In this document: one piece after another, positions 27,770-34,516 of the stretch | Numbering within the stretch: the stretch's first letter is position 1 | How the letters are laid out: every line of letters starts with the position of its first letter | Source of the DNA: Blattabacterium cuenoti | GTDB taxonomy: Bacteria > Bacteroidota > Bacteroidia > Flavobacteriales > Blattabacteriaceae | Assembly: GCF_014251755.1 (NCBI RefSeq) | Contig: NZ_CP059200.1 | Coordinates: 102,286 to 166,285 of the forward strand | DNA: 64,000 nucleotides | Reading direction: 5' to 3' | The notes under the pieces: generated by a model | What the model saw: only the letters and a program-made list of their open reading frames with translations | The model's database searches: none | What the model was told of the DNA's origin: nothing | Position numbers and translations under genes: made by a program

Positions 27770-29122
27770 TTATAATCCAGTCTCTAAATCTAGATTATCT
27801 AAAAAATTCGTATTATAATTTCCTTTTAAAAAATCATTATTTTGCATAAGTTTTCTAAGTAAAGGAAGAGTCGTATGTATTCCTTCTATAACAAATTCAT
27901 CTAAAGAACGACGCATTTTTTCAATGGTTTCTTTTCTACTTTTTGCCGTGGTAATAATTTTAGCAATCATAGAATCATAATAATGTGGAACAAAATATCC
28001 TGCATAAATATGTGTATCGATACGTACGCCTTTTCCTCCAGGTAAATGCATTTGAGTTATTCTTCCAGGAACTGGACGAAAATTTTGATACGGTTCTTCT
28101 GCATTAATTCTACATTCTATAGAATACATTTTGGGATAAAAATTTTTTTTTATAGAAAGTTTTTTTCCATAAGCTAAAAATATCTGTTCTTGAATTAAAT
28201 CTAGCCCTGTTATTTCTTCGGTAATCGTATGTTCCACTTGTATTCTGGGATTCATTTCCATGAAATAAAAATTTTCGTTATGATCTACCAAAAATTCTAT
28301 AGTTCCTACTCCTTCATAATGAAGATATTCAGCTGCTTTTACCGCTTCATTTCCTATTTTTTTTCTAAGAAATGGAGTTAAAAATGGAGAAGGCGCTTCT
28401 TCTACCAATTTTTGATTTTTTCTTTGAATAGAACAATCTCTTTCTGACAAATGACATACTTTTCCATATTTATCTCCGATTATTTGTATTTCTATGTGTC
28501 TGGGATTCAAAATTAATTTTTCTATGTACATATTTTTGTTTCTAAAACAATACCAAGCTTCTTTTTTAGCTTCTTCCCAAGAATTTTTTAAATTTTTCTT
28601 ATTTAAAACAGATCGGATTCCTTTTCCTCCACCTCCAGAAACAGCTTTGATAATAATGGGGTATCCTATTTCATTTGCTATTTTTTCTATCTCTTGATAA
28701 GATGATTTAAAAAAACAGTCAGATCCAGGTAAACAAGAAATCCCAATTTTTTTCATGGTTTTCTTGGCTAGAATTTTATTTCCTATCTGAAGCATATGAT
28801 TTGGTTTTGCCCCAATAAATTTTATTCCATGTTTTTGGCACATCGAAGAAAAATATGCATTTTCAGATAAAAATCCATATCCAGGATGAATTGCATCTGC
28901 GTTTGTAATTTCTGCAGCAGAAATCAAATTTGAAATATTTAAATAAGATTGATATGGAGAAGGAGGGCCAATGCATACAGCTTCATCCGCAAAATAAACA
29001 TGAAGACTATGTTTGTCTACTGTAGAATAAACAGCTACAGTTTTAATTCCCAATTCTCTAGACGTTCGTATGATTCGTAAAGCAATTTCTCCACGATTAG
29101 CTATTAATATTTTTTTAAACAT
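27770..29122 (-). CDS. accC: Acetyl-CoA carboxylase, biotin carboxylase subunit
   Basis: The 450-residue ATP-grasp enzyme has the N-terminus MFKKILIANRGEIALRIIRT, the glycine-rich loop IIKAVSGGGGKGIRSV, and the metal/active-site block FYFMEMNPRIQVEHTITEE. It carboxylates biotin on AccB, the first half of malonyl-CoA formation. It follows accB after 5 bases. The carboxyltransferase subunits are not in this window. Confidence 0.97.
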   Translation of the reverse strand: MFKKILIANRGEIALRIIRTSRELGIKTVAVYSTVDKHSLHVYFADEAVCIGPPSPYQSYLNISNLISAAEITNADAIHPGYGFLSENAYFSSMCQKHGIKFIGAKPNHMLQIGNKILAKKTMKKIGISCLPGSDCFFKSSYQEIEKIANEIGYPIIIKAVSGGGGKGIRSVLNKKNLKNSWEEAKKEAWYCFRNKNMYIEKLILNPRHIEIQIIGDKYGKVCHLSERDCSIQRKNQKLVEEAPSPFLTPFLRKKIGNEAVKAAEYLHYEGVGTIEFLVDHNENFYFMEMNPRIQVEHTITEEITGLDLIQEQIFLAYGKKLSIKKNFYPKMYSIECRINAEEPYQNFRPVPGRITQMHLPGGKGVRIDTHIYAGYFVPHYYDSMIAKIITTAKSRKETIEKMRRSLDEFVIEGIHTTLPLLRKLMQNNDFLKGNYNTNFLDNLDLETGL

Positions 29123-29927: not shown

Positions 29928-31403
29928 ATGAATCCATTAACTAAACGTAGTGAAAATTATTCAAAATGGTATAATGAAATAGTTGTTAGATCTGGGTTAG
30001 CAGAATTTTCCGGAATACGTGGCTTTATGATTCTAAAACCATATGGTTACTCTTTATGGGATAGAATGAAAACAATATTAGATAAAATGTTAAAACTGAC
30101 TGGACATCAAAATGTTTATTTTCCTTTACTTATTCCAAAATCTCTTTTTTCAAAAGAAAAAGAACATACTCAAATTTTTTCTGAAGGATGTGCCGTGGTT
30201 ACACATTCTAGATTAATAAGAAAGAATCCAAATCAAGAAGAACTTATCGTTGATTTGGATTCTAAGTTAGAAGAAGAATTAGTAATTAGACCCACTTCAG
30301 AAAGTATAATATGGAAAACTTATAAACGTTGGATTCAATCTTATAGAGATTTACCTATTTTATTTAATCAATGGGGAAATGCATTAAGATGGGAAATGCG
30401 AACTCGTTTATTTCTTAGAACTACTGAATTTTTATGGCAAGAGGGGCATACTGCTCATTCTACAAAAAAAGAAGCGATAGAAGAAACTATAAAAATATTG
30501 AATATTTATACAAATTTTTCCGAAAAATTTATGGCAATTCCTGTATTACAAGGAATCAAACCATATATGGATAAATTTTCTGGTTCAGAAAAAACATATT
30601 GCATTGAAGCGCTCATGCAAGATGGAAAAGCATTGCAAATGGGAACTTCACATTTTTTAGGACAAAATTTTTCGAAAGCATTCGATGTGAAATTTACTAA
30701 TTTTAACGGAAAAAAAGAATATGTATGGTCTACTTCTTGGGGTGTATCTACCAGATTAATAGGTGGATTAATCATGTCTCATTCTGATGATAAAGGATTA
30801 ATTTTACCTCCAAAAATAGCTCCTATACAAGTTGTTATAATTCCAATATTTTATAAAAAACAACGTATTACTAATATTCATGATATATCCATAAAAATTC
30901 TAAATCTATTAGAAAAAGAAGGAATAAGAGTCAAATATGATGATAGAATGATATGTACTCCTGGATGGAAATTTCATGAATATGAAATAAAAGGAATTCC
31001 CATTCGAATCAGTATCGGAAAAAATGAAATTCAAAATGAAAAAGTAGAAATCTTTAAAAGAGACACATGTGAAAAAATATATATACCTTGGATAAATTTA
31101 AAAAATTCAATTCCAAAATTACTAGATGAAATACAAAATAACATTTATAAGAAAGCGGTTCAAAGAACTCAAAAATTAATCATGAAATCGGATCATTACA
31201 ATGATTTTAAACATCAAATAAATCATTCAGGAGGTTTTATTTTTGCTCATTGGGATGGAACAAAAAATACAAGTAAAAAAATACAAGAAGAAACAGAAGC
31301 AACCATCCGTTGTATTCCTATTTCTAATGAGAAAGAAAAAGGAAAATGCATTTTTTCTGGAAAAACCTCTTTACAAAGAGTCGTTTTTTCTAAATCTTAT
31401 TGA
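29928..31403 (+). CDS. proS: Prolyl-tRNA synthetase (short, archaeal/eukaryote-type)
   Basis: The 491-residue class II synthetase has motif 2 (RPTSESIIWKTYKRWIQSYRD, in part) with RWEMRTRLFLRTTEFLWQEGHTAH and motif 3 GGLIMSHSDDKGLILPP. It lacks the editing insert of the longer bacterial form and ends with the extended C-terminal domain of the archaeal/eukaryote type, which is usual in Bacteroidetes. Its 3' end overlaps the convergent pyrD by 7 bases. Confidence 0.96.
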   Translation: MNPLTKRSENYSKWYNEIVVRSGLAEFSGIRGFMILKPYGYSLWDRMKTILDKMLKLTGHQNVYFPLLIPKSLFSKEKEHTQIFSEGCAVVTHSRLIRKNPNQEELIVDLDSKLEEELVIRPTSESIIWKTYKRWIQSYRDLPILFNQWGNALRWEMRTRLFLRTTEFLWQEGHTAHSTKKEAIEETIKILNIYTNFSEKFMAIPVLQGIKPYMDKFSGSEKTYCIEALMQDGKALQMGTSHFLGQNFSKAFDVKFTNFNGKKEYVWSTSWGVSTRLIGGLIMSHSDDKGLILPPKIAPIQVVIIPIFYKKQRITNIHDISIKILNLLEKEGIRVKYDDRMICTPGWKFHEYEIKGIPIRISIGKNEIQNEKVEIFKRDTCEKIYIPWINLKNSIPKLLDEIQNNIYKKAVQRTQKLIMKSDHYNDFKHQINHSGGFIFAHWDGTKNTSKKIQEETEATIRCIPISNEKEKGKCIFSGKTSLQRVVFSKSY

Positions 31404-32338
31404 ATGTTTTTTAGTTTTCCTTTGAAACTATTTAAAGATGAATAATTTTTTTTTTCCAAAATCAAAGTTAATTCTTTTTTCAATCTTTCAAACACTAAAA
31501 TTCCCTCTTTCAGAAATTGTGTTCCAATTTGAACAGCAGAAGCTCCACATAATATATGTTCAAAAATGTCTTTTCCAGAAGAAATACCTCCACATCCTAT
31601 TATAGAGATATCTTTTCGGAGATAAGTATAAAACTTATGAACATTGGCTAATGCAAATGGCTTTATCATATATCCACCAATTCCTCCAAATCCTTTTTTG
31701 GGGCGTATTACGACTGACTCTTTATTTGCATCAATAAAGAGACCATTAGGTAAACTATTAATACAAGTAACAAAAAAAATGGGAAATTGATTTAAAATCA
31801 AAGCTATATTTTTAATATGTTCATCTTGAAAATAAGGAGGAAGTTTAATTCCTAAAGGTTTTTTATTAAATTTAAATATGTTTTCTATGAAATTTGATAT
31901 TTGATCAAAATCATATCCGAACATTTCTTTTTTTCCAATAAGATTCGGACAAGATAAGTTTAATTCTATAGCAGTTACTTTTGAAGATTGATTTGCTTTT
32001 TGAATGAGAAAATAATTTTCTTCTTTGGATAATCCGGATATAGAAAGAAAAACAGGTTTATTTATTTTTTTTTTCTCTAAAAAATCTAGATAAAAATGAA
32101 TTCCAAGATTAGGTAAACCCATAGAATTTATGCTTCCTATATTCCATTCAAAATATCTGGGTAAAACATTTCCTTTTCTTGGTTGAGATGTACAACTTTT
32201 TGTAACAACTCCACCAGAAGAACTATTTAATAAATTAGATAGTTCTTTATCTGTAGAACAAAGAACTCCTGAAGCATTCATTATGCATAATGGAAGTTGA
32301 ATTCCATTTATACTAGCAGTAGTATCTATTTTTTTCAT
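31397..32338 (-). CDS. pyrD: Dihydroorotate dehydrogenase, class 1A (fumarate type)
   Basis: From ATG 32338 the protein has 313 residues; two further in-frame ATGs lie just upstream. It follows the Lactococcus PyrDA pattern closely: MNASGVLCSTDKEL, LPRYFEWNIGSINSMGLPNLG, ELNLSCPNLIGK (active-site Cys) and KPLGIKLPPYF. The class 1A enzyme is soluble and passes electrons to fumarate. It is divergent from the fused UMP synthase (67-base gap), which does the next two steps of the pathway. Confidence 0.93.
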   Translation of the reverse strand: MKKIDTTASINGIQLPLCIMNASGVLCSTDKELSNLLNSSSGGVVTKSCTSQPRKGNVLPRYFEWNIGSINSMGLPNLGIHFYLDFLEKKKINKPVFLSISGLSKEENYFLIQKANQSSKVTAIELNLSCPNLIGKKEMFGYDFDQISNFIENIFKFNKKPLGIKLPPYFQDEHIKNIALILNQFPIFFVTCINSLPNGLFIDANKESVVIRPKKGFGGIGGYMIKPFALANVHKFYTYLRKDISIIGCGGISSGKDIFEHILCGASAVQIGTQFLKEGILVFERLKKELTLILEKKNYSSLNSFKGKLKNIQ

Positions 32339-32405
32339 AATCATATGAATCAATTGTAATAATATTCAATTATAAAATTTTTTAACTTTACTAAAACAGT
32401 TTTTT

Positions 32406-33767
32406 ATGGAAGAAAAAGAACAATTCTTTTTAGAAATTTATAATTTAGGAATCATAAAATTTGGAAATTTTACACTAAAAAGTGGAATGAATTCTTCTAT
32501 ATATATAGATTTTCGTCCAATAGCTTCTAGACCAGATTTATTAATAAAGTTATCGGATTTACTCCTACATGAGGTTCCATCTTATGATTTTGAACTAATT
32601 TGTGGAGTTCCATATGCGGCTTTACCTATAGCTACTACTTTATCTTTAAGATCCAAAATTCCGCTAATTATTAAAAGAAAAGAAAATAAAGGATATGGAA
32701 CAGAACGAATGATTGAAGGAATATATAAAATAGGACAAAATTGCCTGATTATAGAAGATGTTATTACAAGTGGAGATAGTTTATTAAAAACTATAATAGA
32801 CCTTGAGAAAGAAGGATTAATAATTAAAAATATTATGTCCATTCTTGACAGAGAACAAGGAGGAATAGAAAATATAAAAAAAATAGGGTATAATATCCGA
32901 ACTTTATTTCGAATAGGAGAAGTTTTCAAAATATTAAAAAAAAAATCTTTTCTGAAAGAAAAAGAAATACATATGATTCAATTTTTTATTAAAAATAATA
33001 TAAAAAATATTCAAAATAAACGGATTTCTTATGAAGAAAAAAAAGAAAAAATATCTCATCCTATAGGAAAAAAACTTATAGATATTACGTTGAAAAAAAA
33101 AACAAATTTAATAGTTTCGGCTGATTTAATAGATCCTAAACAAATTTTAAAATTAGTCAGTTTAATTGGAGATAGAATTTGTGGATTAAAACTTCATGTA
33201 GATATCATAAATGATTTTTCATTTTCATTTATAAATTATCTTAAAAATATTTCTATAAAAAAAAATTTTTTATTATTAGAAGATAGAAAATTATGTGATG
33301 TTAGTTCTACAAATTGTCTTCAATTGCATTACGGAATACACAAAATTTCTTCTTGGGCAGATATTGTTACGGCACATGTACTTGCTGGAAGTATGAGTAT
33401 TCAAAACTTGAACATTCCTTATAATATGGGATTGATTACAATATCTGAAATGTCTTCTTATGGAGGATTATATGATGATAATTACATAAGAAAAGTACTA
33501 AATATTTCTTTAAAAAATCCAAAAGTTATTGGAACTGTAGCACAAAGAAAAGTGGATGATAGATTACTATTATTTACACCTGGTATCCATTTTTATGAAA
33601 AAAAAAATAATCTAGGAAATAAATATATTCATCCTGTTCAAGCTTTTGAAAAAAATAAAAGTGATTTTATTATTGTAGGCAAAGCTATTTTTCAATCTGA
33701 AAATCCAAAAATAACGGCAGAAGAATATAAAAATGCGGGATGGAAAGCTTATGAAAATGGACTTTAA
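32406..33767 (+). CDS. pyrEF: Bifunctional UMP synthase: orotate phosphoribosyltransferase-OMP decarboxylase fusion
   Basis: This is one frame of 453 residues with two domains. Residues 1 to about 205 are orotate phosphoribosyltransferase, with FGNFTLKSGMNSSIYIDFR, CGVPYAALPIA, RRKE-like KRKENKGYGTERMIEG and the PRPP loop IIEDVITSGDS. Residues from about 225 on are OMP decarboxylase, with LKLHVDI (Lys272) and LEDRKLCDV (302-309, the Asp-Lys-Asp set), then GLITISEMSSYG, TPGIHF and IIVGKAIF. Domain order and motifs resemble animal UMP synthase more than bacterial PyrE or PyrF. It converts orotate to UMP. Confidence 0.95.
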   Translation: MEEKEQFFLEIYNLGIIKFGNFTLKSGMNSSIYIDFRPIASRPDLLIKLSDLLLHEVPSYDFELICGVPYAALPIATTLSLRSKIPLIIKRKENKGYGTERMIEGIYKIGQNCLIIEDVITSGDSLLKTIIDLEKEGLIIKNIMSILDREQGGIENIKKIGYNIRTLFRIGEVFKILKKKSFLKEKEIHMIQFFIKNNIKNIQNKRISYEEKKEKISHPIGKKLIDITLKKKTNLIVSADLIDPKQILKLVSLIGDRICGLKLHVDIINDFSFSFINYLKNISIKKNFLLLEDRKLCDVSSTNCLQLHYGIHKISSWADIVTAHVLAGSMSIQNLNIPYNMGLITISEMSSYGGLYDDNYIRKVLNISLKNPKVIGTVAQRKVDDRLLLFTPGIHFYEKKNNLGNKYIHPVQAFEKNKSDFIIVGKAIFQSENPKITAEEYKNAGWKAYENGL

Positions 33768-33940
33768 ATTATTCATTTTATTCCATTAGCATAATATGAG
33801 TTTTTTTTTTAAAAATTAATGATACTGATAATATTTTTCTTTAATTTGTATAAAGGTAGTCATATTTAAAAAATTGTTTTGTAATCATAAAAAAATTGAA
33901 AGAAACAAGGTTAAAAAAATTCTTTGAATAAATTTTTAGT

Positions 33941-34516
33941 ATGGAATGGGTCAATTCGTTAATTAGTTGTTTTATGATACTTTTTAGCATTATAGATATA
34001 TTAGGTAATGCTCCTATAATTATGGGATTTAAATCAAAAGGAAACATTATAGACACCAAAAAAGTTGTAATTACTTCTCTTGTAATATTTTTATCTTTTC
34101 TTTTTTTAGGACAACCTATGCTTACAATCATTGGAGTTGATGTCCATTCTTTCTCTGTAGCGGGATCTATAGTATTGTTTTTCATTGGATTAGAAATGAT
34201 ATTAGGAATAGATCTTCATAAGGTTACGGAAAATGCTCAAACTTCTATTGTTCCAATATCCTTTCCCCTTATAGCTGGTCCTGGATCTTTAACAACTTTA
34301 ATTTCATTAAGAACAACTTATGACGTAAATATTATTCTTTTATCTCTTATTTTGAATATGATAGTTGTTTATTTTGTAATAGATAAATGTGATTTTATAG
34401 CCGAAAAAATAGGAAATAATGGATTGGATATTTTAAAGAAAATATTTGGAATTGTTTTATTAGCTTTTGCTGTAAAAATTTTTGGAGCAAATGCTAGTCA
34501 ATTATTTCAACAATAA
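33941..34516 (+). CDS. MarC family (UPF0056) membrane protein
   Basis: The 191-residue protein has six hydrophobic segments. Typical MarC motifs are present: FSIIDILGNAPIIMGF near the N-terminus, GVDVHSFSVAGSIVLFFIG, and VPISFPLIAGPGSLTTLISL in the centre. Function of the family is not settled; an early link to multidrug resistance was withdrawn. The gene converges on rnpA and the two overlap by 10 bases. The 173 bases upstream hold no gene I can see. Confidence 0.9.
   Translation: MEWVNSLISCFMILFSIIDILGNAPIIMGFKSKGNIIDTKKVVITSLVIFLSFLFLGQPMLTIIGVDVHSFSVAGSIVLFFIGLEMILGIDLHKVTENAQTSIVPISFPLIAGPGSLTTLISLRTTYDVNIILLSLILNMIVVYFVIDKCDFIAEKIGNNGLDILKKIFGIVLLAFAVKIFGANASQLFQQ

Follow-up and report, generated by a model that had tools for sequence, protein, structure and literature searches.

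An OPRT–OMPDC fusion in the animal and plant order is probably an old trait shared by Blattabacterium and free-living relatives

The closest described systems are the bifunctional UMP synthases (UMPS) of animals and plants (human 2wns and 2qcd; Coffea 8u0z), in which an OPRT domain precedes an OMPDC domain in a single chain. The same two activities are fused in the reversed order in cyanobacteria (NF004034/PRK05500) and kinetoplastids (3qw4), where the OMPDC is of the pyrF_sub2 kind. In trypanosomatids, the UMPS has the reversed order and the DHODH is of bacterial origin (PMC7052976). On the other hand, the ordinary flavobacterial genes, which belong to the same bacterial order as the locus described here, encode the same reactions in separate proteins of other subfamilies, PyrE and pyrF_sub2. 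Our search of the open-licence literature, a weak negative given its partial coverage, returned no paper on a bacterial fusion in the OPRT–OMPDC order, and the accessible parts of PMC4177761, PMC5803862 and PMC13232951 hold nothing on bacterial fusions. A chlamydial pyrE is labelled UMP synthase in a published table despite the missing pyrF (PMC3091639).

We analyzed 64,000 nucleotides of a Blattabacterium cuenoti genome (the window), in which one gene joins the two domains in the animal and plant order (Table 1). The frame opens with ATG, is free of internal stops, and holds the sole OMPDC of the single-contig, 625,920-bp genome. The NCBIfam models for pyrE (TIGR00336, 121 bits; cut-off 106.8) and pyrF (TIGR01740, 131.5 bits; cut-off 92.3) both matched, with the OPRT first and the OMPDC second. 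Pfam OMPdecase matched at aa 233–441 (120 bits; cut-off 27), and Pfam Pribosyltran matched at aa 64–151 with 24 bits, slightly below its cut-off of 26.3. The NCBI name models that match the protein name it merely as a pyrE or a pyrF domain. A sequence-only reading of this DNA had described a single OPRT–OMPDC chain in the order used by animals and plants, and the intact frame with both models above their cut-offs bears this out; the motifs that it quoted (CGVPYAALPIA, LEDRKLCDV, SEMSSYG and TPGIHF) are all in the translation. We take LIIEDVITSGDSLL in the OPRT half to be the PRPP-binding motif. A scan of positions 31300–34000 for promoters and terminators was uninformative (19 promoter-like sites, where 20.0 were expected, and no terminator).

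Table 1. Features of the UMPS locus, in positions of the window.
Feature	Position	Strand	Evidence
Bifunctional UMP synthase gene (OPRT–OMPDC fusion), 453 aa	32406..33767	+	ORF, domain models, structure matches, predicted model
OPRT domain, ~aa 1–196	32406..32993	+	Human UMPS OPRT alignment (query 11–196); TIGR00336 aa 13–168
Presumed PRPP-binding motif LIIEDVITSGDSLL, aa 114–127 (human counterpart LIIEDVVTSGSSVL)	32745..32786	+	Sequence and alignment
OMPDC domain, ~aa 217–450	33054..33755	+	Human UMPS OMPDC alignment (query 217–450); TIGR01740 aa 235–442
OMPDC catalytic D-x-K-x-x-D: D293, K295, D298 (yeast D91, K93, D96)	33282..33299	+	Kept in 33/33 Blattabacterium loci
N405 at the yeast Q215 position (presumed phosphate gripper)	33618..33620	+	Alignment of Blattabacterium loci
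K426 at the yeast R235 position (presumed phosphate gripper)	33681..33683	+	Alignment of Blattabacterium loci
Class 1A dihydroorotate dehydrogenase gene (pyrD), divergent from UMPS	31397..32353	−	NF002702 and Lactococcus DHODA match
Intergenic gap pyrD–UMPS, 52 bp	32354-32405		Between divergent genes

How closely does this bacterial protein resemble the animal and plant enzyme? It shares with it the domain order, the length of each domain, both subfamilies, the fold and the catalytic residues, as well as a linker-side motif common to the human protein and to ours (ISYEEKKEKISHPIGKKLI in the window protein); identity to human UMPS in the fold alignment is ~36% for the OMPDC and ~40% for the OPRT. 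The differences are that the window gene is bacterial, carries N and K in place of Q and R in the phosphate gripper, and lies divergent from a DHOD gene. Among solved structures, the OPRT half best matched the human UMPS OPRT (2wns, E 5e-47), followed by Leishmania UMPS (1e-31) and then by the best non-eukaryotic match, Aeropyrum 2yzk (2e-16). The OMPDC half best matched the human UMPS OMPDC (9hqy, E 9.5e-46), and OMPDC chains of other types reached E 3e-8 or weaker. By itself, this ranking gives no information on donor or direction. An AlphaFold2 model built from 18 rows (mean pLDDT 83.5) found the human OMPDC (TM 0.87 on the target), the Coffea UMPS OMPDC (0.86) and the human OPRT (0.89 on the target) as its top PDB matches; the predicted fold is in accord with the two halves of human UMPS, and the mutual packing of the domains is uncertain in the model (pTM 0.56).

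The other known fusion type does not account for the gene. The reverse-order model NF004034 was the only NCBIfam fusion model to match the window protein, at 131 bits, far short of its cut-off of 656, and the match covered the OPRT half alone (model positions 287–473), in which the two proteins are related. At E 1e-3, the window protein had no match to pyrF_sub2 (TIGR02127). The ordinary flavobacterial PyrF, in contrast, is pyrF_sub2 (TIGR02127, 245 bits), a different subfamily from the window OMPDC; it matches NF004034 at positions 6–264 and has Leishmania 3qw3/3qw4 as its best structures. We also observed that, for L104 and other pyrF_sub2 loci, the best solved relative is the Leishmania UMP synthase OMPDC (E 8e-44), which the tree places within the Bacteroidota rows (88/84).

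We then placed each domain in its own tree, with 29 rows for the OMPDC and 43 for the OPRT; the eukaryotes were human, yeast and Leishmania only (two or three sequences per tree), which is the main weakness of these trees. Four of the 33 Blattabacterium loci and five of the nine f6 or f6-like fusion loci (L038, L043–L050) were included. Left out were seven single-domain OPRT rows (L053, L055, L057, L063, L071, L124 and L149), five pyrF_sub2 rows (L108, L111, L112, L114 and L115), and L117–L120, which are not typical OMPDC. Clade A denotes the fusions of Blattabacterium, of genomes G053, G070 and G077, of family f6 and of a Saprospira plasmid (13 rows), and clade B denotes four fusions from MAGs. 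In the OMPDC tree, support of 99/99 separates the eukaryote-type rows from those of the E. coli type and of archaea; clade A stands at 96/95, clade B at 98/99, and human together with the stand-alone gammaproteobacterial PyrF at 81/83. When very distant pyrF_sub2 rows were added to this tree, clade A split and its branches were unsupported. In the OPRT tree, a eukaryote-type group of 23 rows, including human, was recovered at 87/81; clade A stood at 90/88, clade B joined the Leishmania OPRT at 95/66, and the ordinary flavobacterial PyrE fell elsewhere. Both halves are grouped with the human enzyme, with gammaproteobacterial genes that stand alone and with the rare fusions from MAGs. Judged by their sequences, both domains belong to eukaryote-type subfamilies, apart from the ordinary bacterial ones, as had been proposed from their motifs.

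The fusion is ordinary within its bacterial clade and unusual among bacteria at large. It is present in 50 of the 68 genomes of the genus and family, namely all 49 of Blattabacterium, none with an in-frame stop, and G053 (1.3 Mb, 53% identity); it is absent from all 18 small genomes of the family (200–300 kb; G049–G052 and G054–G067). Of 395 genomes drawn from the order, 127 carried it at E 1e-20: the 49 Blattabacterium, G053, G070 (family f4), G077 (family f11) and 75 of f6, every match spanning nearly the full query (from 1–3 to 449–453 of 453). In f6 itself, the fusion was found in 98 of 100 genomes, including all 93 of good quality; the two genomes without a match have a completeness of 89% and 56%. 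We infer that f6 is Weeksellaceae, because the Chryseobacterium MAG row L038 groups among the f6 rows in both trees. In a draw of 395 genomes from the phylum, 51 matched, nine of them with fusions (our own and eight of f6) and the other 42 with the OPRT alone. Outside the order, three Saprospira plasmids, two of which were read at the gene level, carry the fusion at 37–39% identity under an annotation as pyrF only. Four MAG loci carry it at 34–36%, under the labels Gammaproteobacteria (one), Bacteroidales (one) and Chlorobi (two), and such labels may be mistaken. Within the class to which the Gammaproteobacteria MAG is assigned, the search at E 1e-20 matched 9 of 143 genomes, with a fusion in the seed alone, and a search of Pseudomonadota at E 1e-25 matched 1 of 398 genomes, the seed itself.

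Could the gene have come from the cockroach or another host? Its presence throughout the genus and in free-living relatives rules against such a transfer into Blattabacterium; the fusion is an old trait common to a family of free-living bacteria, with no recent acquisition from a host. It had been suggested beforehand that the gene was either an old transfer or part of a little-known bacterial family, and that free-living Bacteroidetes should be searched for it. The f6 genomes and the Saprospira plasmids do share it, and the family reading is supported; a transfer is possible only if it predates the ancestor that Blattabacterium shares with its free-living relatives, as the distribution contradicts one into the endosymbiont lineage itself. 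A UMPS of this domain order, usually described as a eukaryotic fusion, is here the usual enzyme both of a cockroach mutualist and of a large family of bacteria. Two plasmids drew our attention for other reasons. That of Saprospira sp. CCB-QB6 (L089, NZ_CP116809.1; 53 kb) carries core nucleotide synthesis genes: guaB, guaA and, besides the UMPS fusion, a class 1A DHOD. On that of S. grandis Lewin (L088:1437-2181, NC_016936.1), the intact fusion adjoins a gene for a KilA-N protein and an OMPDC piece of 291 bp, an arrangement that resembles a relic of recombination or duplication.

The divergent neighbour of the window gene is, by its matches, a class 1A DHOD. It matched NF002702 (PRK02506) with 463 bits (cut-off 301), and it matched Lactococcus DHODA (E 1e-95) and the T. 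cruzi enzyme (3e-90) far ahead of class 1B (1e-28) and class 2 (1e-12); the active-site loop NLSCPN, with its Cys, is present. The enzyme is alike in sequence to Lactococcus DHODA and the trypanosomatid fumarate DHODH, and it differs in that its gene is divergent to a UMPS gene. Fumarate is the acceptor of class 1A DHODH (PMC10395836). We found no pyrB, pyrC, pyrI, pyrK or carA within the 64-kb window, and weak carB matches (22% and 18% identity) fall in an ORF at 27770–29122 that reads from its sequence as a biotin carboxylase. Nothing supports a special origin of this neighbour from eukaryotes, as Lactococcus DHODA is closer to the G070 enzyme (65% identity) than members of the clade from different genera are to one another (48–61%).

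Furthermore, the association of the two genes extends well beyond this genome. Class 1A DHOD was found in 57 genomes of the order draw (E 1e-50), and all 57 belong to the 127 fusion genomes. Counted by genus, it occurred in 8 of the 15 genera that have the fusion and in none of the 93 others (Fisher p 2e-8), and, with the Blattabacterium genomes removed, in 8 of 78 fusion genomes against 0 of 268 others (p 5e-6), both values being uncorrected for relatedness. The two genes are divergent neighbours in 53 of the 57, in families f1, f4, f6 and f11, with 45–118 bp between the match ends; they lie apart in G331, G343, G373 and G325. On the Saprospira plasmid L089, the DHOD is upstream of the fusion on the same strand. 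The pair is unstable, because 70 of the 75 genomes that f6 contributes to this draw have no class 1A DHOD match at E 1e-50. The simplest reading is that the pair was present in the ancestor of the clade and that the DHOD was later lost in most of f6. In one Blattabacterium genome (G039:C1:120097-121038), a single TAA lies inside the DHOD match, which may point to decay of this copy or to an end effect.

The OMPDC phosphate gripper has been studied intensively in research on enzyme catalysis, and we take yeast Q215, Y217 and R235 to be the gripper residues that hold the phosphate of OMP. We compared the active site in 33 Blattabacterium loci (32 distinct sequences), 18 other bacterial rows of the eukaryote type, human and yeast. 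Ten residues (yeast D37, K59, H61, D91, K93, D96, T100, S154, P202 and Y217) are conserved in all 33 Blattabacterium loci. The gripper, on the other hand, reads N, Y and K in the window against Q, Y and R in yeast, the changes being conservative. The Q215 position holds N in 32 of the 33 loci and S in one, and the R235 position holds K in 29 and R in four, whereas Q and R are retained in all 18 other bacterial rows, in human and in yeast. Downstream of the catalytic D, the N in the GNT motif varies among the Blattabacterium loci. Row L097, one of the 18 other bacterial rows, reads X at the position of catalytic K59. A tree of the OMPDC halves, which included these columns, requires at least two changes at each gripper site. 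K looks old in Blattabacterium, with a later return to R, because the four R-bearing loci form one group (96/83). As judged from the alignment, the changed residues could make the OMPDC weaker or otherwise alter it.

These observations most likely reflect a working bifunctional UMPS that has long resided in the clade. In this enzyme, the N-terminal OPRT would convert orotate and PRPP to OMP, and the C-terminal OMPDC would decarboxylate OMP to UMP. The DHOD encoded next door would supply the orotate, and therefore the pair would span the final three steps of the de novo pyrimidine pathway. This substrate supply is plausible because a Blattabacterium metabolic model has a dihydroorotase and predicts the bacterium's own supply of dihydroorotate (PMC3819652). 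The common ancestor of Blattabacterium, Weeksellaceae and two more families of the order would have had the fusion and its DHOD neighbour, the fusion having replaced the separate PyrE and pyrF_sub2 that are ordinary in flavobacteria. Blattabacterium would then have inherited the pair and retained it through genome reduction, with the gripper substituted later. We regard this account as very probable. Drift of the Blattabacterium OMPDC half, with the altered gripper as the sign of relaxed selection on an enzyme that has weakened or changed, is an improbable alternative: the near-universal Q-to-N and widespread R-to-K replacements and the variable N of the GNT motif would fit it, but the ten conserved residues, the catalytic D, K and D included, and the absence of in-frame stops argue against it. 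Moreover, K across most of the genus, with R in one nested group of four, fits a stable state better than decay. To a local fusion of the ordinary flavobacterial PyrE and PyrF we give practically no credence. The PyrE of other Bacteroidota do match the window protein more weakly, as in the 42 phylum genomes with the OPRT alone, yet forcing clade A together with the ordinary PyrE cost 88 log units (p-AU 2.1e-5), and forcing it with pyrF_sub2 cost 124 (p-AU 4.7e-5). This outcome, in which both domains lie inside ordinary flavobacterial PyrE and PyrF, had been named in advance as the one that would overturn the eukaryote-type assignment, and it is refuted under the models used; the ordinary PyrF is, in addition, of another subfamily.

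Where, then, was the fusion made? An ancient transfer of the fused gene from a eukaryote to the ancestor of the clade would explain the shared domain order and type and the human enzyme as best match of both halves, and a grouping of clade A with human was not rejected (AU p 0.54 for the OPRT and 0.19 for the OMPDC). We nevertheless consider it rather unlikely, since the same OMPDC type stands alone in five gammaproteobacterial genomes (L093–L097), one of which (L094) matches the human OMPDC at 324 bits, twice the score of the window protein (~160). Furthermore, fusions of this type lie inside complete bacterial pyr operons, and clade A with human and yeast was close to rejection for the OMPDC (p 0.07; human with yeast gave 0.23). 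The two domains may instead have been joined more than once, in clade A, in clade B and in eukaryotes, with the order convergent and aided by the pyrE–pyrF gene order; this we entertain as a possibility of some weight, though still the less probable side of the question. In the gammaproteobacterial genome G913 (L127/L096), separate eukaryote-type pyrE and pyrF genes follow the order of the fusion and overlap as ATGA, one small deletion short of fusion, and the OPRT tree separates clades A and B with gammaproteobacterial single genes between them. Against this, A and B as a single clade were not rejected for the OPRT (p 0.30) and appeared in the OMPDC tree (68/88), and the split G913 genes may be pre-fusion forms or fissions. 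A bolder reading, that the animal and plant type of UMPS is a bacterial invention passed as a fused gene to eukaryotes, and that the N/K gripper of Blattabacterium still works, draws on the overlapping G913 genes, the fusions in complete pyr operons and the Bacteroidota clade beside class 1A DHOD; we find it doubtful. The free-living and endosymbiotic bacteria described here are on offer for direct tests of the origin of the fusion, of its linkage to class 1A DHOD and of a natural change in the gripper.

The operon-like runs have the order pyrD-(pyrK)-pyrC-UMPS-pyrB-pyrI in the loci labelled Chlorobi (L041), Bacteroidales (L040) and Gammaproteobacteria (L039). Their flanks were read by ORFs, with the gene families confirmed by profiles in L041 and L039 and judged by eye in L040; for the further locus L042, the reading covers the fusion and a match to pyrD. 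The PyrD of these runs is of class 2 in L041 (and, by eye, in L040) and of class 1B, with PyrK, in L039.
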